This document shows, in pieces, positions 40,177 through 43,718 of a DNA stretch of 64,000 nucleotides. The DNA comes from Methanohalobium evestigatum Z-7303 (GTDB lineage: Archaea > Halobacteriota > Methanosarcinia > Methanosarcinales > Methanosarcinaceae). Positions within the stretch are counted from its first letter, which is position 1, and every line of letters starts with the position of its first letter. The translations under genes were made by a program, and so were the position numbers. A model generated the notes under the pieces. It had not been told where the DNA came from, made no database searches, and saw nothing but the letters and a program-made list of their open reading frames with translations. The stretch spans positions 1,178,001 through 1,242,000 of the forward strand of contig NC_014253.1 in assembly GCF_000196655.1 (NCBI RefSeq). The letters are read 5' to 3'.

Positions 40177-40301
40177 ATATGTGGCTACTATCCAGATAGA
40201 AAATATTTTTATAAAAGCAAAATTTTATTAATTGCTATTGGTTAAAACTAAGTGAGTCAATATTACCATTATTATGATGAAAAAGTAGAGGAGATGAAAC
40301 T

Positions 40302-41726
40302 ATTAAATCTATTATTCTTGCAGGTGGTTCAGGGACGCGTCTATGGCCACTTAGTCGTGAACAGTATCCAAAGCAGTTCTTAAAACTGGGTGAAACATCG
40401 CTATTTCAGGATACTGTTATTAGATGTTTTAAAGTATCAGATATATCCGAAATCTTTGTTGTAACTAAAAAATCCCAAAAATTTTTTGTATTGGGCCAGA
40501 TTAATGAGCTAGGTTATGAGATCCCTGAAGATAATTTGTTGATAGAACCTGAAGGTAAAAATACACTCCCTGCAATCTATTATGGGGCTCAGGAGATTGA
40601 GAGAAAGTTTGGAAAATCAATTGTTGGAGTATTCCCTTCAGACCATATATTGGACGATGGAGCGATGCAGACAATTTCAGATGTACAGGTATTAACTTCA
40701 GATTATCTTTTAACTTTTGGAATTGTTCCAGATTCACCACAGACCGGTTATGGGTACATAAAACCAGAAGAAGAAATCGATTCTAGAGTTTCTGGATTCA
40801 GAGTTTCTGAATTTAGAGAAAAACCTGATATAGAATACGCTCAACGTTACATGAATGAGGGATGCCTCTGGAATAGTGGTATATTTTTGTTCGACACAGC
40901 TGTGTTCTTTGATGAAGTGATAAAACATGCTCCAGAAATATCCGATACATTCGAATCAAATATTGATTTAGAGGTTATTTATCAACAGGTTCCTTCGGTA
41001 TCTATTGATTATGAAATAATGGAAAAATCAAATAAAGTTGCTGTTGTTAAACTCAACAAAAAATGGAATGATTTAGGTGATTTCAACTCAATATATAATG
41101 AGTTTGAAAAGGATTACAAAGGTAATGTGGTTTATGAATGTGATGATTTTTCAATTGGTTCAACTGATAATCTAATATATTCTGAAAAGAACAAAGCTGT
41201 TTCATTAATCGATGTCAATAACATGGTTGTTGTGGATACTTCGGACGCACTGCTTGTCTGCCCTAAAGAGAGCAGTCAGAAAGTAAAAGAGATTGTAAAT
41301 GGGTTAAAGGAAAGAAATGATGAAAGAGCTTATCTTCACAAATATGTTTACCGTCCTTGGGGTTCATATACTGTAATGGAATCATCTGAAACGCATAAAA
41401 TCAAAAATATAACTGTGATACCGCAGAAATCTCTGAGCATGCAGCTTCACCACCACCGCAGTGAACATTGGGTAGTGGTAAAAGGAATGGCATCTGTAAA
41501 GGTCGATGGTCAGGAATATTTTTTAAGACAGGGTGAGAGTACATTTATTAGGGCAGGTGTAAAACATCGGCTATCAAATCCTGGTAAAGTGCCGCTTGAA
41601 ATCATCGAAGTACAGCTTGGAGAATATGTGGGAGAAGATGATATCGTCCGGTTTGATGATGATTACGGAAGGGAAAATGTAACTTACCCAAATTTTAGTA
41701 TAAATAGGAAAAATGTACATAATTAA
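40302..41726 (+). CDS. manC: Mannose-1-phosphate guanylyltransferase (ManC/AlgA type II), ATT start
   Basis: 475 residues. Makes GDP-mannose for glycan assembly. From ATT 40302 the frame reads (M)KSIILAGGSGTRLWPLSREQ, the nucleotidyltransferase signature that begins essentially every ManC/AlgA. The next canonical start, TTG 40491, would delete that site. TGA 40278 closes the frame upstream, and no ATG, GTG or TTG lies between. GAGGAGAT ends 7-8 nt before the ATT. The pyrophosphorylase domain spans 1-270 (FREKPD, GCLWNSGIFLFD). The C-terminal cupin with VYRPWGSYTVME and QLHHHRSEHWVVVKG is the phosphomannose-isomerase-type domain of bifunctional enzymes. Confidence 0.9.
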   Translation: MKSIILAGGSGTRLWPLSREQYPKQFLKLGETSLFQDTVIRCFKVSDISEIFVVTKKSQKFFVLGQINELGYEIPEDNLLIEPEGKNTLPAIYYGAQEIERKFGKSIVGVFPSDHILDDGAMQTISDVQVLTSDYLLTFGIVPDSPQTGYGYIKPEEEIDSRVSGFRVSEFREKPDIEYAQRYMNEGCLWNSGIFLFDTAVFFDEVIKHAPEISDTFESNIDLEVIYQQVPSVSIDYEIMEKSNKVAVVKLNKKWNDLGDFNSIYNEFEKDYKGNVVYECDDFSIGSTDNLIYSEKNKAVSLIDVNNMVVVDTSDALLVCPKESSQKVKEIVNGLKERNDERAYLHKYVYRPWGSYTVMESSETHKIKNITVIPQKSLSMQLHHHRSEHWVVVKGMASVKVDGQEYFLRQGESTFIRAGVKHRLSNPGKVPLEIIEVQLGEYVGEDDIVRFDDDYGRENVTYPNFSINRKNVHN

Positions 41727-42617: not shown

Positions 42618-43718
42618 TTTTGTGACTTTAGAGATATTTAAGGTTAATTTGTATTTCTAACAGTTGATTTTTAGCTATTTTGATGTTGATTTAACCATGG
42701 GCTAGTGTCCGCTATCCCATGGTTAAATCACTCCTTTGCTCCTTAATGTACTCAATTGATACAGGTTGAATCCGAAGGCCGTAAACAGCATTTTTAGGTT
42801 CACTCGTTTCATAGTAGTAACGAGTGTGGTTCCTGCTTTGAATACTCCTTTTGTAACCGCATATACCCTTTCACCGGTTACTCTAATAGCGCTGATTCTA
42901 CTGTTTCTTAATATTTCTCTCTGCATAGTAGCATCGTAACCCTGAGGGTTTGTACCGAAGTATCCCTTATCTCTATACACAACCTCATCCTCTCTTGAAA
43001 GATCGACTTTGTTATCATGGACTGTTGCTGTTGTGGTTTCGAATCTTCTAATCAGTTGATAATCCGTATCGATGATTGTATGTAGCTTGTAACCGAAATG
43101 AGATTTACCACTCTTCTTAGCCCATGTACCATCTTTGCTTCGTCTGGTCTTTGCTTCATTCCCACGGGGCTTGTCAGCCCCGGCATGTCCTGGGTCGGAA
43201 TGAATGAACGTGGCGTCCTGGATCATTCCTTTCTTGATCTTGAGTCCAAGCGAATCGAGTTGTCTCTGCAACTCTCTCCATACCTCTTTTTCCTTGTTAG
43301 TATCGATGATCCTCTTCCTGAACAACCAGACAGTTGTACTGTCTGGTATGTATTCAGGGAATTTGAGGAAATGTCTGAACGAAATCCTGTCGATACACTG
43401 TTTCTCAATCTCCTGATCAGATAACCCATGCCACTGCTGAAGTATCAGCATCTTGAGCATGACGATAACGTCAGCTTCGGGTCTACCGCCCGAAGCCGAC
43501 CTGTTGGTATACATCGATTCCAGTATAGGTCTGAATTTCTTCCAATCGATCAAAGCTTCAACTTCAGCAAGCTTATCCCCTACAGCAATAAGACGTTTAT
43601 ATTCTTCGTTAAGAGCAAAATCAGTAAATGTATCCATATTAAATATTTCAAATCAATTCTATATAAAGTTAACAGAATTCAATCCATGTTAATGATAGTT
43701 TATCGAAATCCTCTATAG
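42587..43718 (-). mobile_element. IS5-family insertion sequence
   Basis: About 1.13 kb bounded by inverted ends TAGAGGATTTCGATTAA (left) and TTTATCGAAATCCTCTA (right). It carries one intact transposase on the minus strand and inserted into the older transposase to its left. Exact ends and target duplication need alignment. Bases 43719-43998 (280 bp) right of it hold no clear gene; a 37-codon frame at 43805-43918 is not recognised. Confidence 0.75.
42723..43637 (-). CDS. IS5-family transposase
   Basis: 304 residues, full length. N-terminal DUF772-type region (SDQEIEKQCIDRISFRHFLK, DSTTVWLFRKRI), then the DDE catalytic core: QDATFIHSDPGHAG (first Asp), EVVYRDKGYFG (second Asp), and the GERVYAVTKGVFK region carrying the Glu. 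The C-terminus is RVNLKMLFTAFGFNLYQL. No breaks, so potentially active. GC content is higher than in the flanks. Confidence 0.93.
   Translation of the reverse strand: MDTFTDFALNEEYKRLIAVGDKLAEVEALIDWKKFRPILESMYTNRSASGGRPEADVIVMLKMLILQQWHGLSDQEIEKQCIDRISFRHFLKFPEYIPDSTTVWLFRKRIIDTNKEKEVWRELQRQLDSLGLKIKKGMIQDATFIHSDPGHAGADKPRGNEAKTRRSKDGTWAKKSGKSHFGYKLHTIIDTDYQLIRRFETTTATVHDNKVDLSREDEVVYRDKGYFGTNPQGYDATMQREILRNSRISAIRVTGERVYAVTKGVFKAGTTLVTTMKRVNLKMLFTAFGFNLYQLSTLRSKGVI

Follow-up and report, generated by a model that had tools for sequence, protein, structure and literature searches.

Which codon starts translation when a reading frame offers none of the usual start codons? The question is raised by manC of Methanohalobium evestigatum Z-7303, which lies in the window analyzed here (the whole stretch of DNA, 64,000 nucleotides). 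A preliminary description of the window proposed that manC starts at ATT 40302, 7-8 nt after a Shine-Dalgarno (SD) sequence. Our results support this proposal, as the ATT lies 7 nt from the SD register and orthologues share the position. The features concerned are collected in Table 1. We write ATH for ATA, ATT, or ATC (AUH in mRNA) and “codon 0” for the codon aligned with ATT 40302.

Table 1. Positions in the window of manC, its leader, and other features discussed in the text
Feature	Position	Strand	Remark
manC, mannose-1-phosphate guanylyltransferase / mannose-6-phosphate isomerase	40302..41726	+	ATT start; TAA 41724-41726 end
Proposed start codon ATT	40302..40304	+	non-canonical codon in 110/128 orthologues; SD register 7 nt off
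Shine-Dalgarno GAGGAG	40288..40293	+	pairs with own 16S 3' end GGATCACCTCCT
In-frame stop TGA upstream of manC	40278..40280	+	
First canonical in-frame codon of manC, TTG	40491..40493	+	63 codons past ATT 40302
ATG overlapping the manC SD, out of frame	40294..40296	+	at -8 or -9 in many orthologues
Candidate ORFs with strong SD	31642 ATA, 35455 ATT, 20492 ATT	+	first canonical codon 21-32 codons further
DUF772/DDE transposase near manC	42723-43637	-	

The manC reading frame and its orthologues

The 474-codon manC frame is intact, and its product matches TIGR01479 (GMP_PMI) with 466.4 bits against a cut-off of 372.95, over profile positions 2-467 of 467; the NTP_transferase domain match begins at residue 2. 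The gene is the only manC copy in the 2.4-Mb genome that carries the window, and its closest named relatives are found in Methanosarcinaceae and Methanoperedens records. As the preliminary description stated, the frame contains no ATG, GTG, or TTG between the upstream TGA and TTG 40491, the codons after the stop being AAA AGT AGA GGA GAT GAA ACT ATT. It was also right that a start at this TTG would cost the protein its nucleotide-binding site, because the GGSGTRLWP signature would go. The GGAG of the leader occupies 40290-40293, which places the sixth base of the AGGAGG register at 40294, and the SD matches the organism's own anti-SD. Given the SD spacing, the lack of a canonical alternative, and the finding that orthologues have ATH, ATG, or GTG in the same position, ATT 40302 is the best-supported start. 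We consider it very likely that manC translation begins there, and the whole explanation, in which this start belongs to a wider practice of AUH initiation, is also highly probable.

The evidence from orthologues comes from a related-locus search with manC (80 loci; 31 archaeal loci inspected first, 50 bacterial). The aligned codon was mostly ATA, ATT, or ATC in the 31 archaeal loci. Using different E-value limits, manC was found in 88/111 genomes of the family and in 124/185 genomes of the order. We then compared N-terminal regions across the order, where 118 genomes supplied 128 distinct manC genes after exclusion of L154, L166, and L169 (without the N-terminal motif), duplicates, and partial matches lacking the N-terminus. 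Codon 0 is ATA in 68 genes, ATT in 31, ATC in 8, GTT in 2, GTC in 1, ATG in 17, and GTG in 1, i.e., it is non-canonical in 110 (107 ATH and three GTT/GTC) and canonical in 18. Therefore, the alignment of related strains that the preliminary description suggested as a check does not restore ATG in most relatives. Since GlmU, used as a negative control (n = 30), has ATG in 26 cases, TTG in 4, and a non-canonical codon in none, the manC pattern exceeds chance. The three GTT or GTC codons (L091, L093, and L149) lie 7 nt past GGAGG and, being two mismatches from AUG, would be awkward for initiation by tRNA-Met. On a manC protein tree built by a quick method with codon 0 left out, and with several long branches flagged, codon 0 changes class (canonical or non-canonical) no fewer than nine times.

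Of the 110 genes with a non-canonical codon 0, 46 lack any canonical in-frame codon back to the preceding stop; such a codon lies no more than 12 nt upstream in 40 genes and farther away in 24. The 46 start-less genes represent 45 genomes and 13 genus codes. We scored each leader against the anti-SD and measured the spacing from the SD register to the codon. For the 46 start-less genes, this spacing is 7 nt (37 genes), 8 nt (7), or 9 nt (2), so that all fall within 7-9 nt. In 32 of the 40 genes with a near upstream start, that start would sit on top of the SD register, at -1 nt (24 genes) or +1 nt (8 genes), and codon 0 of the same 40 genes lies 7-8 nt from the register in 33 cases. In addition, the tree (88 scored rows) shows at least seven changes between a 7-nt and an 8-nt spacing. 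Within genus code g13, 20 genes carry the leader ATG in frame (at -9) and 6 carry it out of frame (at -8), and the genes are intact either way. As each such 1-nt indel would be a frameshift in a coding spacer, the segment between SD and codon 0 is not coding.

These counts bear on two other explanations of the missing start codon. Errors of sequencing or assembly, or decay into a pseudogene with loss of the ATG, could be suspected given the nearby transposase and the lack of a manC match in the one other genome of the genus compared, but the gene gives a full-length family match in an intact frame and shares its codon class with 110/128 orthologues, including 11 start-less genes in genomes of one or two contigs, which leaves this explanation extremely improbable. 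(A plasmid search with ManC gave weak bacterial ManC matches only.) The other explanation holds that codon 0 is an internal Ile codon and that translation starts upstream at a still less usual codon or without a start-codon signal. In its favor, codon 0 varies mainly among synonymous Ile codons, and bacterial ManC proteins, which have longer N-termini, carry Ile, Leu, or Val at this position in 31/31 rows (31 of the 50 loci, kept by a motif and length filter). Ile could thus be tolerable as an internal residue here, although the 46 genes that lack an upstream start escape this argument. Codon usage does not decide the matter: ATA is above and ATC below expectation at codon 0 (ATA/ATT/ATC 68/31/8 vs 35/38/34 expected), but Ile codon 3, an ordinary internal residue, is likewise skewed to ATA. 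What speaks against an internal Ile is that in-frame stops lie close by, at -9 in manC (L184 and L187) and at -3 or -6 in rfcS, the second gene described below, that the SD spacing indicates codon 0, and that this very codon is ATG, GTG, or TTG in relatives. We therefore regard an upstream start of this kind as very unlikely for manC of the window.

The proposed start at codon 0 need not hold for every orthologue, as an upstream canonical start is probably in use in some of the 64 manC genes that possess one. Specifically, the gene has no SD and an ATG at -9 or -6 in a Methanoperedens-like group (L197, L209, L212, and L213), and in L116, an ATG at -9 has its own properly spaced SD; the upstream start is probably used in these five. 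Given such starts in some archaea and the Ile, Leu, or Val in bacteria, a second gene matters.

rfcS and a survey for further ATH starts

We surveyed 464 kb of the same genome (402 coding ORFs) for a strong SD followed by ATH, requiring a coding-like N-terminus and a distance of at least 12 codons to the first canonical codon. The survey found six ATH genes, whereas control codon classes yielded 0-3; in two relatives, the numbers were one (controls 0-2) and three (0-2). The excess over control codons is only modest.

The top match of the survey is rfcS, present in 107/111 genomes of the family; its product, the small subunit of replication factor C, matches NF001679 with 533 bits over model positions 4-318 of 322. 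In a sample of 77 parsed genomes (80 loci, less two from duplicate genomes and one unparsed), rfcS codon 0 is ATT in 33, ATA in 18, ATC in 11, ATG in 5, TTG in 3, and CTN in 7. An AUH-type start codon is thus conserved in both genes (ATH in 107/128 for manC and 62/77 for rfcS). Of the 62 ATH-type rfcS genes, 61 have the SD at a distance of 6-8 nt, among them all 32 that lack a canonical upstream start. Counting both genes, an SD at normal distance with no canonical alternative is found in 46 manC and 32 rfcS genes. In five genomes (G006, G018, G066, G117, and G132), a stop codon lies 3 or 6 nt 5' of the rfcS ATH; consequently, no upstream canonical codon can read into it in frame. The ATG or TTG found at exactly this codon in eight relatives fixes the start position. 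In Methanoperedens-like genomes, rfcS instead has its ATG at -3, immediately before codon 0, which itself encodes Leu or Ile. Of the two genes, rfcS is the stronger case for an ATH start.

A class-wide DNA pattern (GGAG, 4-11 nt, ATH, and codons for I-W-I-E-K-Y-R) matched 161/237 class genomes, many of them in a family beyond the order (f7). A genome missed by the pattern need not have ATG; the reversed control pattern gave no match in the 237 genomes. The preliminary description had called AUU starts very rare outside infC-type cases. Such starts are normally treated as a rare exception, but with rfcS as a second gene, framing the manC start as an isolated rarity is too narrow, and the AUH start looks like an old habit of this methanogen group.

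Other genes gave more limited results. In cofG, ATT follows a conserved CAGGTGT leader in 29/30 loci by pattern (codes g13 and g5; the last by eye), with the caveat that 9/30 loci also have a GTG just 5' of the TYSKN motif; elsewhere, cofG has ATG in four parsed loci (of six) of other genera. A Rieske-type gene of the same genome needs an ATA start to include its whole Pfam domain (from residue 4), and three further ORFs of the window are candidates (Table 1). Three further candidates were set aside. PfpI has ATA in one genome only (L445), a one-species variant, as the other 26 of 27 parsed loci have ATG (17), TTG (7), CTG (1), or TGT (1), with 3/30 loci unparsed; its ATA in L445 (G081) corresponds to ATG in the 97% identical L446 (G096) and to CTG in L463. 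The ATT of L299 (methanogenesis marker 11) is probably spurious, with the model starting at residue 27, beside a GTG, and the ATC of L257 was dropped for its non-coding score.

Altogether, we conclude from these sequence comparisons that AUH codons probably initiate translation in a conserved gene set of this group. Class-wide AUA, AUU, and AUC starts behind an SD appear borne out for rfcS and manC and partly for cofG. The importance of the locus exceeds the first reading, in that conserved AUH codons would start two genes in a class of methanogens and their relatives, and one of the two encodes a clamp-loader subunit. Gene callers that accept only ATG, GTG, and TTG will cut, lengthen, or miss such proteins, and among those affected is this subunit, which 107/111 genomes of the family carry.

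An NTG overlapping the manC SD

The manC leader has a further feature, the out-of-frame ATG 40294 within the SD, of which the preliminary description made no mention. Of the 94 non-canonical manC genes that have GGRG, 74 have an NTG immediately after it, and in 59 of the 94 this is ATG; at other SD sites, used as a control, ATG comes after GGAG in 2/160. Where the ATG is at -8 (36 genes), its frame closes after three codons in 21 genes, the stop overlapping the manC start codon, and after six codons in nine. Leaders without ATG at this site have CTG at -8 (eight genes) or -9 (five), or such sequences as GGAGGAATT and GGAGAGAAAAAC. Because it is present in both frames and in three families, the overlapping NTG is not the manC start; it looks selected, however. 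Local folding gave no interpretable result. A tiny ORF, ATGATGAAAAAGTAG, occupies 40274-40288 and closes just 5' of the SD.

The alternative is that this ATG starts manC, directly in those relatives that have it in frame at -9 and through a programmed -1 shift in genes that have it at -8, the window's own manC among them. The site is evidently conserved for some reason, and such a start would yield MKT-IKS or MTG-IKS; however, the ATG would overlap its own SD (register -1), the -8 frame usually ends within six codons, many manC leaders have no ATG there, and rfcS leaders show none at -8 or -9 by eye. A programmed frameshift from ATG 40294 was rejected, since no slippery run is shared by the classified manC rows (by eye) and the AUG toggles between -8 and -9. 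We consider this alternative very unlikely and retain ATT 40302 as the start.

Proposed mechanism and comparison with known systems

In the mechanism we propose, the strong SD GAGGAG would position the 30S subunit on the manC mRNA, and initiator tRNA-Met (anticodon CAU) would accept AUU 7 nt downstream, with the third-position mismatch tolerated. The product would then begin Met-Lys-Ser-Ile-Ile-Leu-Ala-Gly-Gly, with Met presumably inserted at the AUU. The genome has one initiator-type tRNA-Met(CAU), with A1-U72, among 44 tRNA matches (150/203 candidates scored), and no special initiator tRNA with an NAU anticodon was seen in this set. A tRNA-Pyl (CTA) is present in the same genome (L488, G000 C1 near 300260).

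The AUH codon may be kept since a weak codon lowers output or ties it to initiation fidelity through aIF1/aIF2. Archaeal aIF1 has been reported to disfavor non-AUG complexes (PMC6237735), and AUH-started genes would therefore be expected to respond to initiation fidelity, which could plausibly explain why AUH is retained even though one transition makes AUA into AUG. The same machinery would need to accept AUH, and the SD of P. abyssi aEF1A, GGAGGUGAU at -13 to -5, is similarly spaced (PMC6237735). What differs is that aIF1 acts against non-AUG in this system, and the parts of that study concerned with it do not describe natural non-AUG genes. On balance, we suggest only tentatively that AUH serves throttling or fidelity control. 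A broader reading, in which AUA, AUU, and AUC form a standing second start-codon class, selected against AUG, for fidelity control of a small gene set (rfcS, manC, and others), and the SD-embedded AUG of manC adds a second, frame-independent regulatory element, is speculative and rather doubtful. If AUH is kept on purpose across the class, it would offer a natural system for studying third-position mismatch tolerance by archaeal aIF1/aIF2.

The closest known case is infC, the bacterial IF3 gene, which has an AUU start behind a strong SD, a conserved codon of the AUH kind, and no canonical start nearby; its AUU holds output low or makes it fidelity-sensitive. The two archaeal genes are alike in all these features of the start site. 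They differ in belonging to another domain of life, in being more than one gene, and in their products: neither ManC nor the replication factor C small subunit is an initiation factor acting against its own start, and direct autoregulation by the product is therefore not expected.

Searches of open PMC papers turned up no description of AUH starts being conserved in manC or rfcS. The start codons given in the relevant passages of an M. mazei Ribo-seq study are ATG, TTG, GTG, and CTG only (PMC11456600). An archaeal precedent is an Asgard tubulin gene, for which an ATT start was inferred from a missing N-terminal strand and the SD distance (PMC13394414). As described there, that case concerns a single gene in one genome, whereas manC and rfcS make two genes, spread over an order or class, and have relatives with ATG or TTG at the same codon.
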